A DNA stretch of 64,000 bases from positions 1-64,000 of the forward strand of contig DYFK01000012.1 in the NCBI GenBank assembly GCA_020725265.1, written 5' to 3'. The notes under the pieces are model-generated. The model made no database searches and was not told the origin of the DNA. It saw only the letters and a list, made by a program, of their open reading frames with translations. The position numbers and the translations under genes are program-made. Source of the stretch: Hydrogenophilus sp. (lineage in GTDB: Bacteria; Pseudomonadota; Gammaproteobacteria; Burkholderiales; Thiobacillaceae). Each line of letters starts with the position of its first letter. Position 1 is the first letter of the stretch. This document shows, one piece after another, positions 35,647-46,689 of this stretch.

Positions 35647-35678
35647 AAGCAGAATGCATGGTGGCATGCATTCTGCTT
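35647..35678 (+). other. Perfect 14-bp hairpin upstream of the TusA-YeeE operon
   Basis: Stem AAGCAGAATGCATG with its exact complement and loop GTGG. It lies in an AT-richer stretch, 32 bases before the first tusA-like start and directly before a second hairpin. No T-run follows. It could be a dyad operator or an mRNA leader element. Confidence 0.6.
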
Positions 35679-35709: not shown

Positions 35710-36036
35710 ATGCAAGCCACCGGCTGGTTTGGCCGATTTCGAGACCGGCGCAGCGGACTGCCCGGGCCGATGCTGCGCGACATCGACGTACCCGGCATCG
35801 GCCGGCTGACGCTGGCGCGCACGGTGGATTGCCTCGGCGCGATGTGCCCGCGTCCGCAACTGCTGACCATGAAGGTACTGGGCGAGGTCCGCGCGGGCGA
35901 CATCATCGAAGTGATCTCGGACAACCCGACCGCGGTCGAGGGTTTTCCGGCGTTGGCGATGGCGCTGAATTGCGCGCATCTGGGCACGGTGCGGGAAACC
36001 GGCCACTGGCGCATGTATCTGCGCAAGAGTCCGTGA
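35710..36036 (+). CDS. TusA-family sulfur carrier, N-terminally extended
   Basis: A 108-residue SirA/TusA-like protein. The core (about 35-108) has DCLGAMCPRPQLLTMKVLG, with the CPxP Cys that carries persulfide, and DIIEVISDNPTAVEGFPALA. About 30 extra N-terminal residues (MQATGWFGRFRDRR...) precede the core; an internal ATG at 35770 is an alternative start, but the GGAGAG site favours 35710. First gene of an operon with a YeeE-type transporter. It probably passes sulfur (or selenium) from the transporter to cytosolic acceptors. Confidence 0.87.
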   Translation: MQATGWFGRFRDRRSGLPGPMLRDIDVPGIGRLTLARTVDCLGAMCPRPQLLTMKVLGEVRAGDIIEVISDNPTAVEGFPALAMALNCAHLGTVRETGHWRMYLRKSP

Positions 36037-36081
36037 ACAAGGGCGGCCCGGGGCGGCCGTCGGTCTGACAAGGAGAAGAGA

Positions 36082-37539
36082 GTGAACATGGCGTCCGCGA
36101 GTGCCTCCACGGCCACGCATTGGCTATTCCGCAAGAGCAGTCTTCAGTCGATGGGCGTGCTGCTGTTCGTCATCATCGGTTCGTTATGGGCGCTGTCCGT
36201 CGACACGCGCTTCGTCTACATGCTGGTCTACGTCTGGTTCGGCCTGGCCTATGGCCTGCTGCTCCAGTATGGACGCTTCTGCATGGCCTCGGCGGTGCGC
36301 GACCTGTTCGCGGTCAAGGTGCCACGCATGGCGGTCGGCATGATGATCGCGGTGGCGCTGTACGCGGTGGTCGCCGCCATCGTCACGCTCAGCGGTTTCA
36401 GCACCTTCCATCCCAACGCCATGGGCTGGCACATCGTCATCGGTGGCGCCATCTTCGGTTTCGGCATCGTCTTCACCGGCGGTTGCGCGTCCGGCTCGCT
36501 GTACAAGGCCGGCGAGGGCAACATGAACTCGATGCTGGTGATCCTGGCGATCTCGTTCTCGCAAGCCATCGTGGTCACCGCCACCGGCTGGTGGGACAGC
36601 CTGGTGCCGCAATCCTGGCTGGATTCCGCCGCCGCCAAGGCCGCCGACATGCCGGAGGAGCTGACCATCACCAAGGGCTGGTTCGACATCTTCACCGCCG
36701 GCTACATCTGGGATCTCAAGGGCCACACCACCGCCGAAATCTTCGGCATGGCGGAAACCGCCACCGGCATCGTCGTGCTCAACACCTTCCTGACCGCGAT
36801 CCTGCCGGTCGGCCTGATCCTGATCGCGCTGTACGCCTTCTATTACCGCAAGGGCCACCTGCGCCGCGCCGGTCTGACCGCGCCGAGCCTGAGCGACGAA
36901 CTGGCCGGCATGTGGGCGATGTGCACGTCCTCCAAGAACACCGCGCTGGCCGGCATCGGCCTGGGCATCCTGGCCGGCCTGCACATGTACGTGACCGGCG
37001 TGCTGCGCGATCACTACGGCATCTTCAACTTCGGCGAACTGCTGGTGGCGATGGGCTACAACAACGGCCTGTCGATCCAGGAAACCGTGTTCGACCCCGG
37101 CTACTGGTACATCACCACCCAGGAAGCCCAGTGGGGCGGCTGGGTGATGCAGCAGGTCGGCATCGAGAACATGGACAGCATTTTCTTCGGCCTCGACAAC
37201 GGCCTGCCCAACCCGCTGCTGAACGCGCCCGGCTTCATGTCCATCGGCATCATCCTCGGCGCCGCCGTGATGGCCCTGGCCCGGCGCGAGTTCAAGTGGA
37301 AGCTGCCGAGTTGGGAAACCGCGTTCTTCGCCATCGTCGGCGGCACCCTGATGGGCATCGGCGCCCGCATCGGCATGGGCTGCAACATCGGCGCCTTCTT
37401 CGCCACCGTCACCAACGGCGACCCCAGCGGCTGGGTATTCCTGGTCGGCATGGTGATCGGCGCCTGGATCGGCGTGAAGGCCTTCACTTGGTGGATGGAA
37501 TGGAGCGCCTCCCGCAACAGTTCGGAGTGCGGCCTCTGA
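36082..37539 (+). CDS. YeeE/YedE-family thiosulfate-type (or selenium-linked) transporter
   Basis: A 485-residue inner-membrane protein with about 10-12 hydrophobic segments. Conserved Cys motifs of the family are all present: LQYGRFCMASAVRD, FTGGCASGSLYKAGEGN and GMGCNIGAFFATVTNGDPSG. In characterised YeeE proteins these Cys relay thiosulfate inward, while YedE relatives are linked to selenium metabolism. The start is GTG at 36082, 6 bases after AGGAG; an ATG at 36088 is too far from it. Flanked on both sides by TusA-like genes, the expected partners. Confidence 0.9.
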   Translation: MNMASASASTATHWLFRKSSLQSMGVLLFVIIGSLWALSVDTRFVYMLVYVWFGLAYGLLLQYGRFCMASAVRDLFAVKVPRMAVGMMIAVALYAVVAAIVTLSGFSTFHPNAMGWHIVIGGAIFGFGIVFTGGCASGSLYKAGEGNMNSMLVILAISFSQAIVVTATGWWDSLVPQSWLDSAAAKAADMPEELTITKGWFDIFTAGYIWDLKGHTTAEIFGMAETATGIVVLNTFLTAILPVGLILIALYAFYYRKGHLRRAGLTAPSLSDELAGMWAMCTSSKNTALAGIGLGILAGLHMYVTGVLRDHYGIFNFGELLVAMGYNNGLSIQETVFDPGYWYITTQEAQWGGWVMQQVGIENMDSIFFGLDNGLPNPLLNAPGFMSIGIILGAAVMALARREFKWKLPSWETAFFAIVGGTLMGIGARIGMGCNIGAFFATVTNGDPSGWVFLVGMVIGAWIGVKAFTWWMEWSASRNSSECGL

Positions 37540-37589
37540 CGGCGCATCCGAGCCACTCAACTTTCGACAATCGACAAGGAGAAAACACG

Positions 37590-37841
37590 ATGGCCATGAG
37601 CTTCAACAAGATCGCGGACTGCGAATGGAAGCTGGACGTGTGCGGCTATACCTGCCCGCACCCGCAGATGTACACCAAGAAGGCCCTGCAGAAGCTGGAA
37701 AGCGGCGACGTGCTGACGCTGGTGTTCGACAACCCCTCCTCGGGTGAATCGATCCTCGCCATGTGCGATGCCGAGGGCAACGACCTGATCGAGCGCACCG
37801 AGAACGGCGGCTCCTTCATCTGGAAAATCCGGAAGGCCTGA
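37590..37841 (+). CDS. TusA-family sulfur carrier
   Basis: An 83-residue single-domain SirA/TusA protein with LDVCGYTCPHPQMYTKKAL (CPxP Cys plus a second Cys four residues earlier) and VLTLVFDNPSSGESILAMC. Strong AAGGAG site. It follows the YeeE-type transporter and precedes DsrE-like genes. Likely accepts persulfide from the transporter or from the DsrE-like partner. Confidence 0.92.
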   Translation: MAMSFNKIADCEWKLDVCGYTCPHPQMYTKKALQKLESGDVLTLVFDNPSSGESILAMCDAEGNDLIERTENGGSFIWKIRKA

Positions 37842-37844
37842 GTC

Positions 37845-38156
37845 ATGCGACTGGGCATCGTCATCACCGACGAGGGCTATCTGCCCACCGCCAACGGCCT
37901 GCTCGACGCGGCCGGCGCGCGTGGCTGGGACACCCTCTGCTTTCTCACCGACACCGGCGTCAACCTGCTCGCCGATGCCGGTTTCGTGGCGCGCGCCAAG
38001 GCGCGGCCGAACAGCGTGTCCCTGTGCGAACACAGCGCCGAGCGCTACGCCGAGGGACGTTTCGATCTGAACGGCCTGGCCGACGTGGTCATCGTCGGCG
38101 GCCAGTACCAGGATGCCGAACTCGTGCGCAAGTGCGACCAGGTTCTGGTCTTCTGA
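37845..38156 (+). CDS. DsrE-like protein
   Basis: A 103-residue protein with the DsrE/DsrF-type alternating strand-helix pattern: LGIVITDEGYLPTANGLLDA, DTLCFLTDTGVNLLAD, a central SVSLCEHSAERYA whose Cys sits where DsrE proteins carry the active Cys, and DVVIVGGQYQDAELVRKCDQ. It likely exchanges persulfide with TusA. It starts 3 bases after the second tusA-like gene. Confidence 0.8.
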   Translation: MRLGIVITDEGYLPTANGLLDAAGARGWDTLCFLTDTGVNLLADAGFVARAKARPNSVSLCEHSAERYAEGRFDLNGLADVVIVGGQYQDAELVRKCDQVLVF

Positions 38157-38165
38157 GGGCACGAC

Positions 38166-38426
38166 ATGGCCGATCAAAAACGCATTCTGATGGTGGCCGT
38201 GCAAAAGCCGGTCGAAGCCCTGCGCATGGCCAGCGGTCTGACCCTGCTCGACGACGCCGTGTCCATCGCCGCCTGGGGCCGGTTGCCGGAAGGCGCCGAA
38301 GCCGCCGAGCAGATGGAAGCCCTGGAATTCGCCGAGGTGCCGGTCGCCGAGCTCGACCCCGCCGCCGACGCGCTGGCCGCCCTGGCCAGCCGGATCATCG
38401 ACAGTGACGTGGTGTATTGCGTATGA
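38166..38426 (+). CDS. Small DsrE/DsrF-like protein
   Basis: An 86-residue protein of strand-helix pattern (RILMVAVQKPVEALRMASGL, TLLDDAVSIAAWGRL) ending in DSDVVYCV, with its only Cys next to the C-terminus. It could be a TusC/DsrF-like subunit; the assignment is weak. The terminal Cys resembles the swinging-arm position of DsrC-type carriers, but the sequence is not DsrC. ATGA overlap with the next gene. Confidence 0.65.
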   Translation: MADQKRILMVAVQKPVEALRMASGLTLLDDAVSIAAWGRLPEGAEAAEQMEALEFAEVPVAELDPAADALAALASRIIDSDVVYCV

Positions 38427-38608
38427 GCACGAACAAACAGGTATTGCTGATCGAAACCGGCCCCACCCCGGCCATGCCGGGTCTGGCCGATGCCCTGCGC
38501 GCGGCCGGCGCGCGGGTGATGGAGTTGAATCTGGACGACCACGGCGCGCTGCTGGACGCCCTGGAACAAGGCTGGATGCCGGTGGTGCTGAAGGCACCGA
38601 CGGCCTGA
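38423..38608 (+). CDS. Very small DsrH/TusB-like protein
   Basis: A 61-residue protein (KQVLLIETGPTPAMPGLADA, then LRAAGARVMELNLDD) without Cys. Position after two DsrE-fold candidates suggests a reduced DsrH/TusB-type subunit, but similarity is too slight to be sure. Start overlaps the previous stop (ATGA), supporting real translation. Last gene of the TusA-YeeE operon. Confidence 0.6.
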   Translation: MSTNKQVLLIETGPTPAMPGLADALRAAGARVMELNLDDHGALLDALEQGWMPVVLKAPTA

Positions 38609-38619
38609 CAGCGTTTTGC

Positions 38620-38638
38620 CCGCGGCCACGTGCCGCGG
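38620..38638 (+). terminator. Hairpin at the end of the TusA-YeeE operon
   Basis: Stem CCGCGGC/GCCGCGG with loop CACGT, 12 bases after the last small gene. There is no T-run, so terminator function is uncertain. Confidence 0.4.
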
Positions 38639-38712
38639 TGGAGGTTGCGCATGACCGCGACCGTCGGCGATGCCGATGGCCGTGGCGGGCCAGCCACTAT
38701 GGGAGCGCCGGT

Positions 38713-38726
38713 TTCCCGATCGGGAA
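38713..38726. promoter_or_regulatory. Perfect 14-bp palindrome upstream of the rhodanese lipoprotein gene
   Basis: TTCCCGATCGGGAA is fully self-complementary and lies 37 bases before the extH start, close to where a promoter would be. The symmetry suggests a dimeric regulator site. No sigma-54 match was found in this gap. Confidence 0.45.
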
Positions 38727-38763
38727 GAACGGCGCGGGCTTGAGATTGGATGGAGGATTTTCG

Positions 38764-40254
38764 ATGAACATGCGCATCAACAAGGGCCTGACCGGCTTGA
38801 CCGTTCTGGCCATGGCCATGGGCCTGCACGGCTGCGGCGGCGGCGGCGAGGACAAGAGCTCGACGGCCAGCCAGATCGTGGTGAACACGCCAGCGATGCT
38901 GGCCCAGGTATCCGCCGATGACTACAACCAGAACGTCAACGGCCTGATCACGGCCGCGACGTTGAAGCGCTGGAAGGACGACTGGACCAACCAGCGACCC
39001 GCCGGCATCACCGGCAAGCTGGTCATCATCCAGGTCACCGCCGGACCGGCTGGCGCCGAATACATCAAGCCGAACGGCAGCAACGTCTTCACCTACCTGT
39101 CGCCCGGAAGCGAATGGACCCAGGTCCGCACCAACGGCGTCATCGAGACCATTCAGGTGGTGCCGGACGGCGCCCAGATGGATGGCATCTTCAAGAAATA
39201 CAACATCGACCCGACCAAGGACATGATCGTGGTCGCCATGGGTACCGGCAGCACCGGCAACGCCATGGCCCAGGGTCGGGTCTGGTACGCGCTGCGCTAC
39301 TGGGGGGTCGACAAGAAGAACATCGCCATCCTCAACGGCGGCAACCAGTGGCTGAACGGCAACGGCCTGGCGGCCGAGGACTTCCAGGCCGCCGCCAGCA
39401 CCGCGCCCAACAACGGCGTGTTCTCGGTGCGCCAGCTGATGGTCGACAACACCCAGCTCCAGGCCACGGTCGAGGACATGCTGAGAATCCTGCCGTCGTC
39501 CGATGTCAACGTGAAGAACGACGGCATCCTGATCTGGGACGCGCGCAGCCTCGCCCAGTACAGCGCCGGCGAGAAGCTCGAATTCGGCGAGGACACCAAC
39601 ACCGACGTCGCCGGCAACCAGTCCTGCGCCACGGCGTTCTGCGACCCGGTCAACCCGAACAATTACCAACAGTTCTTCCAGAACGGCGGCTCGCGCCAAG
39701 GCCATCCGTGGGGTACCCTGCAACTCCAGTACACCCACATGCTGGATTCCAGCAAGGGCTGGGCCTACCGGCCCAAGGCCGAGCTGGCCGCGCTGCTGGC
39801 GGGCCACACCAACGCCCAGGGCATCGGCTTCGTCGACGGCGGCTACAACCTGGTCGGCGCCGGCAATGCCTACCAGGAAGGCGACACCATTTACGCCTAC
39901 TGCGAGACCACCTTCCGCGCCATGATCACCGGCGTGGTCAGCGCGGTCATCCTGGGCAAGCCGACCCGTTTCTACGATGGCGCCATGGTCGAATGGAACT
40001 CGCTGTCCTATCTGCCCGACCAGAACGGCAACTACCTGCTGCCGGCCGACTCGCCATGGCGCACCGACATCAAGTCGTTCTACCGCCCCGCCGCCAGCAA
40101 CACCCTGGTGGCGCCACGCACCATCACCAACGCCTATGCGACCACGACCAACGCCGCGATCAACGCCGACAAGGCCTACAAGACCGGCGAGACCATCGGC
40201 GGTGGTGGCGGTGGTGGCGGTGGTGGCGCGCCATCCAACCCCTGCGGTGGCTGA
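38764..40254 (+). CDS. extH: Rhodanese-like lipoprotein, ExtH type
   Basis: A 496-residue exported lipoprotein: signal with lipobox GLHGC near residue 24, then GGGG. Two rhodanese-like halves follow. The first (about 60-240) includes DMIVVAMGTGSTGNAMAQGR in the position of a loop without Cys; the second (about 255-440) ends in the active loop IYAYCETTFRAMITGVVSAV with the Cys. The protein ends in a Gly10 run and PSNPCGG. In Geobacter sulfurreducens the rhodanese-like lipoprotein ExtH works with the porin ExtI in selenite uptake; the same pairing occurs here. Start chosen by GGAGG 7 bases upstream. Family name is from memory and was not searched. Confidence 0.8.
   Translation: MNMRINKGLTGLTVLAMAMGLHGCGGGGEDKSSTASQIVVNTPAMLAQVSADDYNQNVNGLITAATLKRWKDDWTNQRPAGITGKLVIIQVTAGPAGAEYIKPNGSNVFTYLSPGSEWTQVRTNGVIETIQVVPDGAQMDGIFKKYNIDPTKDMIVVAMGTGSTGNAMAQGRVWYALRYWGVDKKNIAILNGGNQWLNGNGLAAEDFQAAASTAPNNGVFSVRQLMVDNTQLQATVEDMLRILPSSDVNVKNDGILIWDARSLAQYSAGEKLEFGEDTNTDVAGNQSCATAFCDPVNPNNYQQFFQNGGSRQGHPWGTLQLQYTHMLDSSKGWAYRPKAELAALLAGHTNAQGIGFVDGGYNLVGAGNAYQEGDTIYAYCETTFRAMITGVVSAVILGKPTRFYDGAMVEWNSLSYLPDQNGNYLLPADSPWRTDIKSFYRPAASNTLVAPRTITNAYATTTNAAINADKAYKTGETIGGGGGGGGGGAPSNPCGG
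40198..40230 (+). repeat. GGTGGC-type repeat coding a polyglycine tail
   Basis: Run of GGT/GGC codons giving ten consecutive Gly before the last residues of the rhodanese lipoprotein. Nearly identical 9-base units make it prone to slippage, which would vary tail length. Confidence 0.75.
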
Positions 40255-40288
40255 CGCCGGTCACGTTCTTCTTGTTGCATACTCCTTT

Positions 40289-40315
40289 GGCCCACGAATT
40301 TCGTGGGCCTTTTTT
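40289..40315 (+). terminator. Intrinsic terminator after the rhodanese lipoprotein gene
   Basis: Stem GGCCCACGAA/TTCGTGGGCC followed directly by T6. It separates extH from the downstream cytochrome gene, which then needs its own promoter or read-through. Confidence 0.92.
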
Positions 40316-40369
40316 CTTTTTCCGGGAACCGCCAACCGCCCTTCCCTCCGCTCCGGAAACCGACACGAG

Positions 40370-41611
40370 ATGTTCCCGACCTCCGTCTCCCGCCTGTCGA
40401 CGCGGCCCGCGTGGCTCGCGCTCCTCCTACTGACCGTCCTGCTCGCCACTGGCTGTGGCGACAAGCCGGAACCGGCCATCGAGGCGTTCCTGGCCCGCCA
40501 CTGGGCCGATCCGCTACCGCCCCAGGGCTCGCCGCCGGCAGGCTATTCGGCGCTGGAAGCCTCGCTCGACCCCGACGCCTGCGGCCAGTGCCATACCGAA
40601 CAGCACGCCGGCTGGCGGACCAGCCTGCACAGCCGCGCCATGGGACCCGGCCTGCTCTGGCAACTCAAGCTGATGGACCAGGACCAGGGCAACCGCTGCC
40701 TGCGCTGCCACGCGCCGCTGGCCGAGCAGAAGGCCCTGCTGGCGCTGGAGCACGGCTGGCCGAACGCCCCCACCGAGCCGCCACCCGACTACGTCCCCGC
40801 CGATCTCGGCCATCGCGGCCTGATCTGCGCCGCCTGCCACGTGCGCGAACATCGCCGCTTCGGCCCGCCACCGCGCGGCGAGAACAACCAGGACGGTCCG
40901 CATGGCGGCTTCACCATCGCGCCCGCCTTCCAGGACAGCCGGTTCTGCGCGCATTGCCACCAGTTCCCGGACGACGGGCCGCGCATCGCCGGCAAATTGC
41001 AGGAAAACACCTACCAGGAATGGCTGGCCAGTCCCTATGCCCGCGACGGCGACGGCAAACGCACCTGCCAGGACTGCCACATGCCCGACCGCCGCCACCT
41101 CTGGCGCGGCATTCACGATCCGGAGATGACCCGGAGCGCGATCGAGACCACGCTCGACGTCATCCCGCTCGGCGGCGACCGCTACGAGGCGCGAGCGCGC
41201 GTGCGCAACAGCGGCGCCGGCCATCACTTCCCCACCTACATGGTGCCGAAGGTCGAGCTCCTGTTCAGTCTAGATGGCACCGAGGGCGCCCCCCGCGAAC
41301 TCGGCCGCCATCTGATCGGCTGGCAGGTCGACACCGCGATCACGCGGGAAATCGCCGACACCCGCATCCCCGCCGGCGAAACCCGCGAATTCCGGCAGGC
41401 GTTCAACGCCCCCGTCGGCGGCGACTGGCGGATCGAGCTGGTCCTGCGCGTGATTCCCGGCGAACACTACGAGCGCATCTATCGCGACAGCCTGAGCCGC
41501 GCCGACCGGCTGCCGGCCGAAGCCGTGCCGCTGTTGCGACGCGCGCTCGTCGAAACCGAGGCGGGGCGCTACGAACTGGCGCGACTGGAAGCCGGCCCCG
41601 CGCGGCCCTGA
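40370..41611 (+). CDS. extS: Five-haem c-type cytochrome lipoprotein, probably ExtS type
   Basis: A 413-residue exported lipoprotein with lipobox LLATGC near residue 29. It has five CxxCH haem sites: CGQCH, CLRCH, CAACH, CAHCH and CQDCH, all between about residues 67 and 240. The C-terminal third (RARVRNSGAGHHFPTYMVPK onward) is haem-free and beta-rich. Lipid anchoring next to a porin suggests electron transfer at the outer membrane. Assignment to ExtS rather than another Ext cytochrome rests on lipoprotein plus multihaem architecture and is uncertain. Confidence 0.75.
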   Translation: MFPTSVSRLSTRPAWLALLLLTVLLATGCGDKPEPAIEAFLARHWADPLPPQGSPPAGYSALEASLDPDACGQCHTEQHAGWRTSLHSRAMGPGLLWQLKLMDQDQGNRCLRCHAPLAEQKALLALEHGWPNAPTEPPPDYVPADLGHRGLICAACHVREHRRFGPPPRGENNQDGPHGGFTIAPAFQDSRFCAHCHQFPDDGPRIAGKLQENTYQEWLASPYARDGDGKRTCQDCHMPDRRHLWRGIHDPEMTRSAIETTLDVIPLGGDRYEARARVRNSGAGHHFPTYMVPKVELLFSLDGTEGAPRELGRHLIGWQVDTAITREIADTRIPAGETREFRQAFNAPVGGDWRIELVLRVIPGEHYERIYRDSLSRADRLPAEAVPLLRRALVETEAGRYELARLEAGPARP

Positions 41612-41614
41612 ACG

Positions 41615-41639
41615 ATCGGCGGCCACGCGGGCCGCCGAT
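41615..41639 (+). terminator. Hairpin after the five-haem cytochrome gene
   Basis: Perfect 10-bp stem ATCGGCGGCC/GGCCGCCGAT with a 5-base loop, 3 bases after the stop. No T-run. Together with the sigma-54 promoter downstream it suggests that extJ-M-I form a separate transcript. Confidence 0.5.
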
Positions 41640-41698
41640 TGCAAATTGAAAGATTGCGCTCCGCGATCCCGGTCGTGCAATCCGGAGAAATCCTGGCG

Positions 41699-41714
41699 AA
41701 CGACGCAAGTCGTT
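41699..41714. promoter_or_regulatory. Inverted repeat upstream of the extJ sigma-54 promoter
   Basis: AACGAC-GCAA-GTCGTT, 22 bases before the -24 element. A related palindrome GACGATCGTC sits at 41756-41765. Either could be a binding site of the adjacent sigma-54 activator, though usual enhancers lie further upstream. Confidence 0.4.
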
Positions 41715-41736
41715 GATATACCAAGTCAATACCGGG

Positions 41737-41752
41737 TGGCACGACACGTGCT
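41737..41752 (+). promoter_or_regulatory. Sigma-54 promoter for extJ-extM-extI
   Basis: TGGCACGACACGTGCT matches the -24/-12 consensus (TGGCACG, four bases, then TTGCW) with one mismatch. The GG and GC dinucleotides have the obligatory spacing of 12. Predicted transcription start is about 41762, 30 bases before extJ. A sigma-54 activator gene lies 3.5 kb downstream in the same cluster. Confidence 0.75.
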
Positions 41753-41791
41753 TTAGACGATCGTCGAGTAGACAGAAGCGATCGGTATTCC

Positions 41792-42064
41792 ATGCGATTC
41801 ACCGCTGTTTCCTGGGTGATGGCCCTGACCCTGGCGCTGACGACGGCAAGTGTCGGCGCGGCCGGGCCGGATCAGCCCCGCCTCAAGTTCCGCGCGAAAG
41901 GGCCGGTGTGCTCCTGCGCTTCGGGCATGAGCGAGGCGGATATCAGCAAGGCCTGGGAAGCCCGATTCGCGCAAACCAGGGACGACCGGCCGGAAGCATC
42001 GGACGACCGTCCCGCAACCCGTGACGAGCAGAGGAGAGGGGTAGATGAAACGCAACCAAGGTAA
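41792..42064 (+). CDS. extJ: Small secreted protein with CxC motif, ExtJ-like
   Basis: A 90-residue protein: signal peptide 1-23 (MALTLALTTASVGAA) and a mature part starting AGPDQPRLKFRAKGP. A CSC motif in GPVCSCASGMSEADISKAWE is the only Cys content, followed by a charged, Arg/Asp-rich, probably disordered tail. No haem motif. Position between cytochrome and porin genes matches the small ExtJ protein of Ext clusters. The CxC pair could bind a chalcogen or metal; that is inference. First gene behind the sigma-54 promoter. Confidence 0.65.
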   Translation: MRFTAVSWVMALTLALTTASVGAAGPDQPRLKFRAKGPVCSCASGMSEADISKAWEARFAQTRDDRPEASDDRPATRDEQRRGVDETQPR

Positions 42065-42518
42065 GGGATTCTTCGCAAGGTTCTGGCGCGGCGGCGTCAT
42101 ATTGTCGGTGCTGGCGTTGAGCGCCGTCCTGCTGGCCGGTCTGGCCGGACGGGAGGCCGACGAGCCGGCCGTGGTCGCCGGCTGGGGCGCGGAAGCGACC
42201 TCCGCGCTGGCCGAAGGCGCCAGGTGGCTGTCACCGATCGCGCTGGCCAATGCCTGCGGCCTGGGCGCGTCGAGCTGCTTCAAGTGCCACAACGGCAAGC
42301 GCGCGGCCGCGCCGAACATGGACGCCACGAAATCGCCCTGGCACGCCCAGCACGCCAAGGTGAACAACTCGTGCGTCGGCTGCCACAAGGGCAACCTGCG
42401 GATCATGAAGGAAGACATGGCGCACAAGAACATGCTCGCCAAGCCGCGCGACAACACCGACCAGGTCTGCGCAAGTTGCCACAAGGGCGACCTGAACAAA
42501 GTCCAAGCCGCCTACTAA
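42045..42518 (+). CDS. extM: Three-haem c-type cytochrome, ExtM-like
   Basis: A 157-residue exported protein. A hydrophobic segment (GGVILSVLALSAVLLAGLAG, about 15-35) serves as signal or anchor. Three haem sites follow: CFKCH, CVGCH and CASCH, with further His residues (WHAQHAKVN, DMAHKNML) as possible distal ligands. Strong GAGGAG site; the start lies 20 bases inside extJ. Likely periplasmic electron carrier for the Ext module. Confidence 0.78.
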   Translation: MKRNQGKGFFARFWRGGVILSVLALSAVLLAGLAGREADEPAVVAGWGAEATSALAEGARWLSPIALANACGLGASSCFKCHNGKRAAAPNMDATKSPWHAQHAKVNNSCVGCHKGNLRIMKEDMAHKNMLAKPRDNTDQVCASCHKGDLNKVQAAY

Positions 42519-42540
42519 TCCCCCTCAGGAGCGAACCGAC

Positions 42541-43734
42541 ATGAATCATTCCAAGACCCCGCGCAAAGCCGTCTCCCCGCTCGCCCGCGCCTGCGCCATC
42601 GGCGTGGTCGCCGGCCTGCTGCCGCTGACCGCCACCGCCGGTCCGACCTTCGAGTTCGGCGAGCAAGGCTCGCTGACCATCTCCTACGCCCTGCAGGGCT
42701 GGTTGCAGCAACGCGATTTCACCTCGGCGAACGATTCCGGTTCGTCGACCGACGCCTTCCTGCGCCGCAACCGCCTCACCTTCACCGGCCAGTACAACGA
42801 TTACGTGGGCTTCTATGCCCAGCTCGAAGCTGGCAACGACAGCCGTCTGGGCAACGACAACAAGAGCGTCTACTACCGCGATGCTTACGTCACCCTGGAT
42901 TACCGCGACGACCTGCGTTTCATCGTCGGCCGCTTCAAGAACACCTTCTCGCGCGAGAACCTGGAAGCCTGCCTGGAGCCGCTGACCATGGACCGCGCCG
43001 AGGCGCTCGCCTACACCCCTTGGGGCGGCAGCCGCGACACCGGTCTGGCGGTCTGGGGCAACCTGATGGATGCCAGATTCCAGTACCGGGTGATGATCGC
43101 CGACGGCCGCGAGGGCGACGTGGTCGCCAAGGACAACCCGCGCCTGACCGCGCGTGTCCACTACAGCTTCTGGGAACCGGAATTCAACTACGGCTACCTG
43201 GGCACCTACCTGGGCACCCAGAAGGTGCTGACCATCGGCGCCGCCTACGACAAGCAGGATGGCGTCGCCTACGGCAACTACCCGTCGCGCAGCGACGTCA
43301 AGGACTACAAGGCCTGGACCATCGACGCGTTCATGGAGTATCCGACCGCGAGCGGCGTCTACACGCTGTCCGGCGCTACCTTCAAGTACGACACCGGCGA
43401 TGTCTTCAACCAGACGCCCGATCCGGAAATGGCGGTCAACAGCGACCTCAAGGGCTATTACGTGAAGGCCGGCTACATGCTGCCGGGCAAGGTCGGCAAC
43501 GGCCGCCTGCAATTCTTCGCGCGCCATGAGAAATCCGATTACGGCGCCAAGACCGGCAACGTCGAGTACTACGACCAGACCTGGAACAGCATCGGCGCCA
43601 ACTACTACCTGGACGGCCAGAAGCTGAAGGTCAGCTTCGAATACGCCAAGATCGATTTCGACAACAACCACCCGACCAACCCGGCCTTGCAGGATTACAA
43701 TCAGGCCACGCTGGGCCTCCAGTTGATCTTCTGA
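42541..43734 (+). CDS. extI: Outer-membrane porin, ExtI-like
   Basis: A 397-residue beta-barrel protein with a signal peptide (1-34, ending TATAG). The barrel shows alternating strands such as SLTISYALQGWLQQRDF, RLTFTGQYNDYVGFYAQLEA and LRFIVGRFKNTFSRENLEA. The C-terminus LGLQLIF ends in Phe as required for BAM insertion. The fold resembles phosphate-selective OprO/OprP-type porins. In Geobacter, ExtI is a selenite-uptake porin acting with ExtH. AGGAG site 10 bases upstream; 22 bases after extM. Confidence 0.82.
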   Translation: MNHSKTPRKAVSPLARACAIGVVAGLLPLTATAGPTFEFGEQGSLTISYALQGWLQQRDFTSANDSGSSTDAFLRRNRLTFTGQYNDYVGFYAQLEAGNDSRLGNDNKSVYYRDAYVTLDYRDDLRFIVGRFKNTFSRENLEACLEPLTMDRAEALAYTPWGGSRDTGLAVWGNLMDARFQYRVMIADGREGDVVAKDNPRLTARVHYSFWEPEFNYGYLGTYLGTQKVLTIGAAYDKQDGVAYGNYPSRSDVKDYKAWTIDAFMEYPTASGVYTLSGATFKYDTGDVFNQTPDPEMAVNSDLKGYYVKAGYMLPGKVGNGRLQFFARHEKSDYGAKTGNVEYYDQTWNSIGANYYLDGQKLKVSFEYAKIDFDNNHPTNPALQDYNQATLGLQLIF

Positions 43735-43755
43735 TCGACCGGACAGCCTGCGCGG

Positions 43756-43781
43756 ACGGCCGCCCGGTGACGGGCGGCCGT
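43756..43781 (+). terminator. GC-rich hairpin after the porin gene
   Basis: Perfect 11-bp stem ACGGCCGCCCG/CGGGCGGCCGT with loop GTGA, 21 bases after the extI stop. Only a short T-rich stretch follows. Probably reduces read-through into the kinase gene. Confidence 0.65.
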
Positions 43782-43798
43782 GTCGTTTCCGGGCTTCG

Positions 43799-45279
43799 AT
43801 GAAAGGGATCGCCATCAAAACGCTGAGCATCCAGGGTGCCGCCGCGCAACGCGCGTCCGGCCCGACTTTTCCCGGTCGCCTGATACCGATCGCGATCGCC
43901 CTGCCACTCGGTCTGCTGTACGCCTATTTCGGCCCGCTCTGGCACGAGTCCCGGTTCTTCTGGCTGGCCGGCGCCGCCCTGGTCGGCGTGCTGAGTTATC
44001 TGGCCGCGCGCATGTTCGCCGAACTGGCCGCGCTGCGCCGGCTGGAACAGGGCATCCACAACGCCCGCGAAGGCCTGCTGGAACCGACGCCGGCCGAGCC
44101 CTATGCCTGGACCTGGGTCGGCCGCCTGATTCCGGAATACAACACCACCATCTCGACGCTGAGCCTGATGTTCCAGACCGTCGAGGAATGCCAGGGCCGC
44201 TTCCTCAACGAACGCAACCGCATCAACACCATCCTGCAAAGCCTGCCCGGCGCCCTGCTCAGCCTGGCCGACGACCTGCGCGTGACCATCGCCAACCGCC
44301 AGGCCGACGCGTTGTTCGGCGTCGAGGCCGGCCGGCTGATCGGCGCCAACCTGTTCGAGCTGCTCAACCTCAACGAACGCGACCGCGAGCTGCTGCGCGA
44401 CGCCTTCCTGTACAAGCACGCCATCCGCAACCAGGAAATCGCACTCGACGTCGGCGGCCGCAACCGCTTCTTCTCGCTCAACCTCGCGTTCTACAACGAC
44501 GAGGAAAACGACATGGGCGGCGTGCTTATCCTGCAGGACATCACCGAATACCGGCAGCTCATGGAAAGCGTGGCCACGCGCGAAAAACTGGTGGCCATGG
44601 GCCAGCTCGCCGCCGGCGTCGCCCACGAACTCAACACCCCGCTCGGCAACATCCTCGGCTACGCGCAACTGCTCGACCGCGGCGCCGCCGAACACCCCAA
44701 GCTGGCCGGCTACGCCCGCATCATCGCCGACGAGACCCAGCGCTGCTCGCGCGTGGTCCAGGATCTGCTCGACTACGCGCGCAAGGACAAGTGCAGCGGC
44801 GAGACCTGCGATCTCAACCAGCTCGCCCAGGAGCTGATCGAGACCTTCATCAACTGTCGGCTCAAGCGCTACCGCATCGAGGTCGCCCTGGAGCTGTGCC
44901 CGCAACGCCTGGTGGTCGAGGGCGGCTGCGGCCAGCTCGACATCGTGTTGACCAACCTGCTGATCAACGCCATCGACGCGCTCGACAAGACACCGTCGCC
45001 GCGCATCGTCGTGCGCACCTGGAAGGAAGACGCCTATGCCGCCATCGGCATCGCCGACAACGGCCCGGGCGTGCCGGCCGACATCCGCAACCGCCTGTTC
45101 GATCCATTCTTCTCGACCAAGGAAGTCGGCCAGGGCTCCGGCCTCGGCCTGTCGATCAGCCAGGCCATCGTCGCCAAGCGCGGCGGCTTCATCGCCTACG
45201 ACGCCGACTACGGCCAGGGCGCGCGTTTCGTCATCAAACTGCCGGCGGTGGACCTGGAACGCGCCACCCCGACCGCGTC

Positions 45280-45283
<4 letters not shown>
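43799..45283 (+). CDS. PAS-containing membrane sensor histidine kinase
   Basis: A 494-residue kinase. Two closely spaced N-terminal helices (IPIAIALPLGLLYAYFG and FFWLAGAALVGVLSYLAARM) leave almost no periplasmic loop, so the signal is sensed in the membrane or cytosol. A PAS domain (about 145-255, NTILQSLPGALLSLADDLRV) is followed by the kinase core with H-box VAHELNTPLGNILGYAQLLD, N-box NLLINAIDALD, DNGPGVPAD and GQGSGLGLSISQAI. It is coupled by ATGA to the sigma-54 regulator and follows the ext genes, so it probably controls them. Confidence 0.9.

Positions 45284-46689
<1,406 letters not shown>

Follow-up and report, generated by a model that had tools for sequence, protein, structure and literature searches.

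A 13-gene locus that looks like a line for sulfur through both membranes in a Hydrogenophilus sp.

How do sulfur-oxidising bacteria take up sulfur? A testable answer is offered by 13 adjoining genes at positions 35710-46689 of the window, the whole stretch of 64,000 nucleotides analysed from contig DYFK01000012.1 of Hydrogenophilus sp. (positions 1 to 64,000). The genes look like a line moving sulfur from outside through both membranes to the sulfur-oxidising machinery. We favour the reading, at a probability of roughly 0.6, that this single regulated locus imports sulfane (zero-valent) sulfur from outside to the cytoplasm; the import direction and the sulfur substrate are proposed because of the biology of YedE and TusA.

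The original prediction covered the five genes at 38764-43734, described as a compact Ext-type module that moves selenium, tellurium or sulfur oxyanions and electrons across the outer membrane. All five are present as plus-strand reading frames, and their grouping is not due to chance, as they lie side by side and in register in relatives. The Ext assignment stands: the porin belongs to ExtI, and the lipoprotein and the five-haem protein are ExtH-like and ExtKL-like, with matches that fall below cut-off. The idea of a stand-alone module did not survive: the five genes make up one half, that of the envelope, of a larger locus, and a YTD, or DsrEFH type II, relay makes up the other.

The locus and its two halves

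The whole unit (35710-46689) comprises tusA1-yedE-tusA2-dsrE-like-chp1-chp2, the five genes of the Ext half, a kinase and a sigma-54 activator. Its features are as follows.

35662..35677, +, sigma-54 (-24/-12) promoter-like site before tusA1, TGGCATGCATTCTGCT, score 27.0
35710..36036, +, tusA1, TusA-like sulfur carrier with a CPxP motif (PF01206, 60.3 bits)
36082..37539, +, yedE, inner-membrane sulfur/thiosulfate transporter family (PF04143, 159.8 bits)
37590..37841, +, tusA2, TusA/YeeD-like carrier (PF01206, 66.4 bits)
37845..38156, +, dsrE-like gene, candidate DsrE type II, 103 residues (predicted fold and invariant Cys61)
38166..38426, +, chp1, candidate DsrF-like, 86 residues (place and length conserved)
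38423..38608, +, chp2, candidate DsrH-like, 61 residues (position directly after chp1)
38764..40254, +, ExtH-like two-rhodanese lipoprotein, 496 residues (NF040901, 91.4 bits; cut-off 200)
40370..41611, +, five-haem c-type cytochrome, ExtKL-like (NF040886, 52.6 bits; cut-off 250)
41737..41752, +, sigma-54 (-24/-12) promoter-like site before the CxC gene, TGGCACGACACGTGCT, score 29.0
41792..42064, +, small secreted CxC-motif protein (Cys40 and Cys42 invariant)
42045..42518, +, three-haem c-type cytochrome with an N-terminal hydrophobic segment (PF09699, 24.6 bits)
42541..43734, +, ExtI porin (NF040900, 342.6 bits; cut-off 150)
43799..45283, +, PAS-containing histidine kinase with N-terminal hydrophobic segments (PF00512, PF02518, PF08448)
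45280..46689, +, NtrC-type sigma-54 response regulator (PF00158, 229.8 bits; PF00072)

Relatives were compared in two sets, namely 20 other loci of the host family and a named collection of 70 loci, with titles mostly from Beta- and Gammaproteobacteria, retrieved with two ExtI peptides (KNTFSREN and YGYLGTYL). The sets overlap, many genomes with one of the 20 loci being represented again in the collection, so they are not independent, and their rows are related. Gene order was unchanged in the 20 family loci wherever the contig extends. In the collection, yedE lay within 12 kb of extI at all 58 loci whose contig extends that far, the contigs of the other 12 starting inside the cluster. Rearranged loci keep the linkage, with the YTD block inverted and divergent in L114 and L117 and downstream in L118. 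In the neighbourhood comparison, of the kind that the original prediction had called for, the linkage to YedE and TusA was constant. Pairwise-distance correlations were moderate (extI-yedE 0.56, mhc-rr 0.82) and, being calculated without a species-tree control, were not used as evidence.

The two halves also co-occur across genomes. ExtI exceeded its cut-off in 21 of 117 host-family genomes, the own genome included, with family porin scores falling into two groups (at least 338 bits or at most 124.4 bits), and searching independently for the DsrE-like protein returned the identical 21. Over-cut-off ExtI was found in 2 of 200 genomes of an order sample and in 1 of 398 of a phylum sample, the latter being the own genome.

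The block yedE-tusA-dsrE-chp1-chp2 directly upstream of the Ext half is of the kind that Umezawa et al. reportedly named YTD in 2020 and that has lately been renamed DsrEFH type II. YTD clusters consist of yedE-tusA-dsrE and two or three short conserved proteins (PMC12998232, PMC9751629), and the window combines yedE, tusA, a dsrE-like gene and two short conserved genes in a single block. The identification of YTD as DsrEFH type II was made in a 2026 paper, in which TusA was shown in vitro to load Cys67 of DsrE type II, and the DsrEFH type II complex in turn to load DsrC (PMC13293266); the proteins have also been modelled as a DsrEFH-like double trimer (PMC13047784). The present block shares with the published yeeE-tusA-dsrEFH type II clusters (PMC13293266, PMC13047784, PMC12998232) the yedE and tusA genes, the dsrE-like gene with its invariant cysteine and the two short genes. 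It differs in having an extra tusA in front and the Ext half behind, and in a Pseudomonadota host that also carries type I dsrEFH. Among the phyla studied in PMC12998232, complete YTD is described only for Desulfobacterota and Nitrospirota; in PMC13293266, type II subtype 1 is partly from Pseudomonadota (21%) and oxidative dsrAB are limited to 4.7% of type II genomes.

Within this half, cysteines are invariant at YedE positions 67, 135 and 434 (57 of 57 aligned) and at TusA2 position 22 (60 of 60). The DsrE-like protein has no Pfam match. Its model has a predicted local distance difference test score (pLDDT) of 90.4, and four of its five best PDB chains in Foldseek are labelled DsrE-type (3pnx twice, 2hy5 and 2qs7, E 1.5e-3 to 2e-2), the fifth, 2pd2, being labelled conserved hypothetical. 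Together with Cys61, invariant in all 37 sequences, the model lends modest support to a predicted DsrE fold with a conserved cysteine. Chp1 is conserved in position and length, and the DsrE-like and chp1 genes were present in 51 of 51 full loci. PDB sequence searches with DsrE and Chp1 profiles returned nothing useful, and no match for Chp1. Chp2, too short and variable for demonstration in every locus, was identified directly downstream of chp1 in 29 of 52 loci with an E-value of 1e-3 or lower, and in 6 further loci with weaker E. The alignments of the DsrE-like, Chp1 and CxC proteins are hand-picked subsets.

The oxyanion role is not supported in its first form, the YTD/DsrEFH type II half favouring sulfur over selenium or tellurium. 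A system for selenite or tellurite uptake and reduction, as proposed for Geobacter ext, with TusA and YedE delivering selenium, is distinctly unlikely. It would account for an ExtI over cut-off with ExtH- and ExtKL-like partners, for the impaired selenite and tellurite reduction of a G. sulfurreducens extI mutant (PMC5877670) and for the best NCBIfam match of YedE, which is the selenium-linked YedE/FdhT model at 151 bits against a cut-off of 350. However, it leaves aside the constant YedE-TusA linkage and the DsrE-like gene of all full loci. The G. sulfurreducens cluster extHIJKLMNOPQS (PMC5877670, PMC6148476) shares with the window the ExtI porin, the rhodanese lipoprotein, the five-haem cytochrome and an adjoining small protein. 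Here, however, the gene order is different, ExtH and ExtKL are below cut-off, the five-haem gene is without a selenocysteine-type stop, and the genes are joined to yedE-tusA-dsrE-chp and a kinase and sigma-54 regulator; most extHIJKL clusters have a LysR-type regulator (PMC6148476). Membership in a Geobacter-type cluster was judged by ExtM, ExtN, ExtO, ExtP, ExtQ and ExtS alongside, and none of these models was matched over cut-off among the 13 cluster proteins, relatives and the rest of the genome lying outside the search. This agrees with the reduced Ext gene set first read from the window, and it also counts against a selenite or tellurite system. Use of selenite or tellurite by similar chemistry is possible and less likely than use of sulfur.

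Cysteines, porin and cytochromes of the envelope half

The ExtH model NF040901 spans residues 13-436 of the rhodanese lipoprotein, in the second half of which sits the catalytic-type Cys380. The Pfam rhodanese domain is marginal and confined to that second half (22.2 bits, cut-off 22.2). All 29 members scanned match NF040901, and the E-value of the best of them (1.7e-39) suggests that they too are below the cut-off; over-cut-off ExtH was found in 0 of the 398 phylum genomes. The 56 rhodaneses compared (the window and 55 of 60 loci, leaving aside truncated or short frames) all have the lipobox Cys24, the active-site Cys380 and the tail Cys494.

The window protein has a glycine-rich C-terminal tail ending in NPCGG. 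The 56 C-termini are Cys-Gly-Gly in 50, Cys-Gly in 5 and Cys-Gly-Gly-Gly in 1; Asn-Pro precedes the terminal cysteine in 54, and at least 8 of the 20 residues before it are Gly or Ser in 41, the window included. Terminal Cys-Gly was found in 0 of 23 readable other rhodaneses (24 were found by the ExtH model, of which L170 is not confidently readable), one of which, L162, has a cysteine three residues from the C-terminus. A substrate cysteine beside glycines on an exported sulfur carrier is known from SoxY, which carries sulfur on the cysteine of its C-terminal GGCGG (PMC6067878, PMC5336275). Here, however, the cysteine tail is on a two-domain rhodanese lipoprotein and mostly reads Asn-Pro-Cys-Gly-Gly, and no homology to SoxY is claimed. 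A second ExtH-like rhodanese of 40% identity lies on the opposite strand about 2 kb from the cluster in one locus (L111:491, minus).

The porin exceeds the curated ExtI cut-off and is assigned by Pfam to Porin_O_P. Cys144 is invariant in 65 of 65 ExtI sequences (the window and 64 of the 70 loci), and none of the eight mature sequences inspected has any other cysteine; a cysteine at this position was found in 0 of 24 related porins aligned, two of which are misread frames. Since the collection was retrieved with two ExtI peptides, distant ExtI proteins (Geobacter, Desulfobacterota) are unsampled and conservation near Cys144 is possibly overstated. The predicted structure (pLDDT 83.2) has 16 long strands, and Cys144 would lie in a 31-residue loop between the fifth and sixth of these, the L3 position by strand order, with low model confidence at residues 141-144. 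The best PDB match to the model is OprP (E 1.9e-15); a PDB sequence search with the ExtI profile gave nothing useful. The OprP/OprO phosphate porins are the closest structures, and ExtI has many invariant arginines. However, identity is 17%, and ExtI has its single cysteine in the L3-position loop. In L152 and L153, extI is in two tblastn pieces, possibly by frameshift or assembly error.

The three-haem cytochrome has three CxxCH motifs in 64 of 64 relatives and gave weak ExtM, ExtS, ExtO and ExtN matches (21.5 bits or less). Five CxxCH motifs are present in 59 of 59 full-length relatives of the five-haem protein, covering 59 of 63 loci, and all 27 relatives scanned match the ExtKL model at E 1e-3 or better. 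The lipoprotein status of the first description is not general for this protein, as the lipobox cysteine lies outside the nearly invariant residues in relatives. The five-haem gene was considered as a selenoprotein gene, and this was ruled out by a single open frame without TGA, which is a further point against the selenite or tellurite system. In L113 the gene is in two tblastn pieces, where a frameshift or assembly error is possible. Cys40 and Cys42 of the CxC protein are invariant in all 29 sequences aligned.

The two multihaem cytochromes adjoining the porin are what an outer-membrane electron conduit to or from extracellular solids would have, with the rhodanese lipoprotein in place of a surface cytochrome. 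Such a conduit is very improbable here, as the OprP-like porin model shows 16 long strands, compared with 28 predicted segments for MtrB (PMC5877670), the cluster has no large surface cytochrome, and the pairing with YedE, TusA and DsrE would go unexplained. Geobacter ExtI has been termed a 21-transmembrane-domain protein (PMC6148476).

Full and reduced clusters, regulation and secretion

Seven loci carry a reduced cluster in the order rhod-cxc-c3-extI-yedE-tusA2-mhc. Their hosts are three Solimonas isolates, one Solimonas metagenome-assembled genome, Hydrocarboniphaga effusa, Cellvibrio mixtus and one gammaproteobacterial metagenome-assembled genome, the isolates being organisms that we take to be aerobic heterotrophs. 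The dsrE, chp, kinase and regulator genes were found in 0 of these 7 loci. The sulfur-oxidation genes differ between genomes hand-picked from the 70 loci: dsrA exceeded its cut-off in 7 of 9 full-cluster and 0 of 7 reduced-cluster genomes (16 genomes), and soxB in 8 of 9 and 0 of 7 (the same 16, with the own genome searched in addition). The split in dsrA indicates that the DsrE-like gene is kept mainly where Dsr could use it, and that the envelope core, together with YedE and TusA, can occur by itself.

A role in nutrient scavenging or detoxification of sulfane sulfur or thiosulfate, later recruited by Dsr oxidisers, draws on these reduced cores in Solimonas, Hydrocarboniphaga and Cellvibrio records, and on the uptake of thiosulfate by YeeE/YeeD homologues (PMC13047784). 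It is nevertheless an unlikely account of the locus, since most full clusters tested are in dsrA genomes and two multihaem cytochromes with a dedicated porin would seem excessive for nutrient uptake.

In the host family, dsrA exceeded its cut-off in 94 of 117 genomes. In the own genome, dsrA, tusD/dsrE, tusC/dsrF and tusB/dsrH of the dsr operon all exceed their cut-offs. Family and position make these dsrEFH genes type I, so that the genome, with its type II block, appears to hold both DsrEFH types. The operon also encodes a DsrC-family protein, DsrK over cut-off, a DsrM match that stays below cut-off and a DsrL-sized NAD(P)-binding protein, and the dsrAB of this genome would be of the oxidative kind. 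These features bear on sulfur disproportionation, the role first proposed for YTD clusters. The window has the full YTD gene content, and YTD proteins were more abundant in Desulfolithobacter during thiosulfate disproportionation (PMC9751629). However, the own genome has dsrA together with type I dsrEFH, like sulfur oxidisers, reduced-cluster genomes are without dsrA over cut-off, and the link to disproportionation has been called poorly supported (PMC13293266), making this role highly unlikely.

More than one dsrA over cut-off is present in several family genomes. One such second copy (500 bits) lies apart from the dsr operon at G000:C25:26223-27482 (L157:12179-13576, minus), between frames that by eye are NifU/NifS-like and homocitrate synthase/CysE-like; no dsrB frame was noticed beside it.

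The activator with PF00158 and the upstream -24/-12 sites would together place the locus in a sigma-54/NtrC regulon. With assumed sigma-54 weights and a threshold of 26.5 chosen after a first set of scores was known, sites reaching at least 26.5 were found before tusA1 in 40 of 51 full clusters and before cxc in 43 of 54, with 0.44 expected in each case from controls of shuffled dinucleotide blocks. Before the rhodanese gene, such a site is present in 17 of the 52 full clusters (0.44-0.48 expected per position), and 9 of the 11 full clusters without a tusA1 site carry one there instead. Because of a 337-base gap, about half of which is filled by chp2, a site before the rhodanese gene was sought in the window and was absent. 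Counting both strands, the 64-kb window has six sites of at least 26.5, of which two are inside the cluster. Reduced clusters have no such site before cxc (0 of 6) or the rhodanese gene (0 of 7); one of them, L128, has a site of 27.0 within the five-haem gene. Just after the response regulator gene, seven gammaproteobacterial loci (L103, L108, L109, L111, L122, L127 and L135) encode a secreted-looking protein of about 230-265 residues, which in L127 has no NCBIfam match.

The cluster also co-occurs with a type II secretion system (T2SS). The T2SS of Shewanella places lipoproteins such as MtrC on the cell surface. In the host family, the T2SS secretin exceeded its cut-off in 20 of 21 cluster-bearing and 16 of 96 other genomes; the association is weak within the own genus (4 of 5 with the cluster, 7 of 18 without), and Fisher p-values for such family comparisons take no account of relatedness. 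Among 20 cluster-bearing genomes hand-picked by locus from the collection, the secretin was found in 18, including all 7 reduced ones; this sample is made up of cluster-bearing genomes alone, and L127 entered it with its T2SS already known. Of the 46 loci with enough sequence beyond the regulator, 13 have T2SS genes no more than 5 kb downstream of it. Twelve of these 13 are betaproteobacterial or Thiobacillus-like and one (L127) is gammaproteobacterial, so that adjacency alone is weak. In 12 loci, gspC, gspD and gspE start about 0.2 kb or less past the cluster end (e.g. L085:14205-17197 and L100:17063-18550); the adjacent gspD and gspE are over cut-off and gspC is below.

Among the loci compared (43 upstream, 49 downstream), none has flanks like those of the window cluster, whose trkA/trkH flank is found beside none of the 20 family or 70 named loci. 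Such dissimilar flanks would suit a mobile block. Carriage on plasmids was considered and rejected, as the four plasmid records found are all below 30% identity.

The proposed route and its relation to known systems

Under import of sulfane sulfur, the cargo would probably be polysulfide or other thiol-bound sulfane sulfur. The ExtH-like lipoprotein, which a T2SS may put on the surface, would accept sulfur on Cys380, and its tail cysteine would carry it in the manner of SoxY. The sulfur would cross the outer membrane through ExtI, an OprP-like pore whose one cysteine sits at the position of the constriction loop. Periplasmic redox steps could fall to the CxC protein and both multihaem cytochromes, and YedE would pass sulfur over the inner membrane to TusA. 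In genomes with Dsr, DsrE type II, Chp1 and Chp2 would then hand sulfur to DsrC and reverse Dsr. Through sigma-54 promoters, the locus would be activated by its kinase and NtrC-type regulator.

Several points weigh against this route. Every cluster member is known from sequence and models alone, and the published ExtI phenotype concerns selenite and tellurite (PMC5877670). The YeeE of Desulfurivibrio dismutans encoded beside a porin and a rhodanese lipoprotein went undetected by proteomics (PMC12142623). Thiosulfate did not load cable-bacterial TusA, DsrEFH-II or DsrC, and a Cys67Ser variant of DsrE still passed sulfur to DsrC, which the authors deem non-specific (both PMC13293266). Within the present data, no Foldseek match to the DsrE-like model reaches E 1e-3, keeping its support modest. 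The rhodanese tail is of Ala/Pro/Thr type or mixed in 15 of 56 sequences, several close Thiobacillus relatives among them. The own genome is without SoxB over cut-off and 2 of the 9 full-cluster genomes are without dsrA over cut-off; the core, moreover, cannot need the Dsr and Sox pathways, as the reduced-cluster genomes have neither dsrA nor soxB over cut-off.

A bolder form of the proposal has a surface rhodanese with a swinging cysteine arm attacking extracellular zero-valent sulfur, which would pass through a cysteine-gated ExtI and a cytochrome-assisted relay to YedE, TusA and DsrEFH type II. The system would move between genomes as a block, and the Geobacter ExtI selenite phenotype would be a side effect. 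We regard this extended form as tentative, at somewhat less than even odds.

Both halves of the locus were already known. The closest published arrangement is in D. dismutans, where the porin RS05170, the rhodanese lipoprotein RS05165 and the YeeE RS05145 are co-localised (PMC12142623), and where such porins were suggested to aid import through the outer membrane (PMC12142623). However, that trio concerns one genome and a passing remark; no cysteine tail, regulator or comparative survey is described in the available sections of the paper (PMC12142623). ExtI homologues of moderate identity have been listed in Desulfurivibrio, Desulfocapsa, Thiohalobacter and Thioalkalivibrio (PMC5877670). No description of the joined cluster as a regulated system, its sigma-54 control or the C-terminal cysteine was found in the literature searched, supplements, preprints and most subscription papers being outside its scope. 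New here are the C-terminal cysteine of the rhodanese, the invariant porin cysteine at the third-loop position, the sigma-54 sites and the co-occurring T2SS. The locus gives candidates for outer-membrane and periplasmic sulfur uptake with named cysteines, it has reduced versions in isolates without dsrA or soxB over cut-off, and it offers a reason for the effect of the ExtI mutation on selenite and tellurite.

Elsewhere in the window, the RuBisCO-bearing nature of the contig proposed at the outset is borne out by a match to PF02788 (127.6 bits) at 2-466 on the minus strand, truncated by the contig end. This N-terminus of a RuBisCO large chain is divergent from a LysR-type regulator at 593-1591 on the plus strand, which by its position is a candidate CbbR-like protein.

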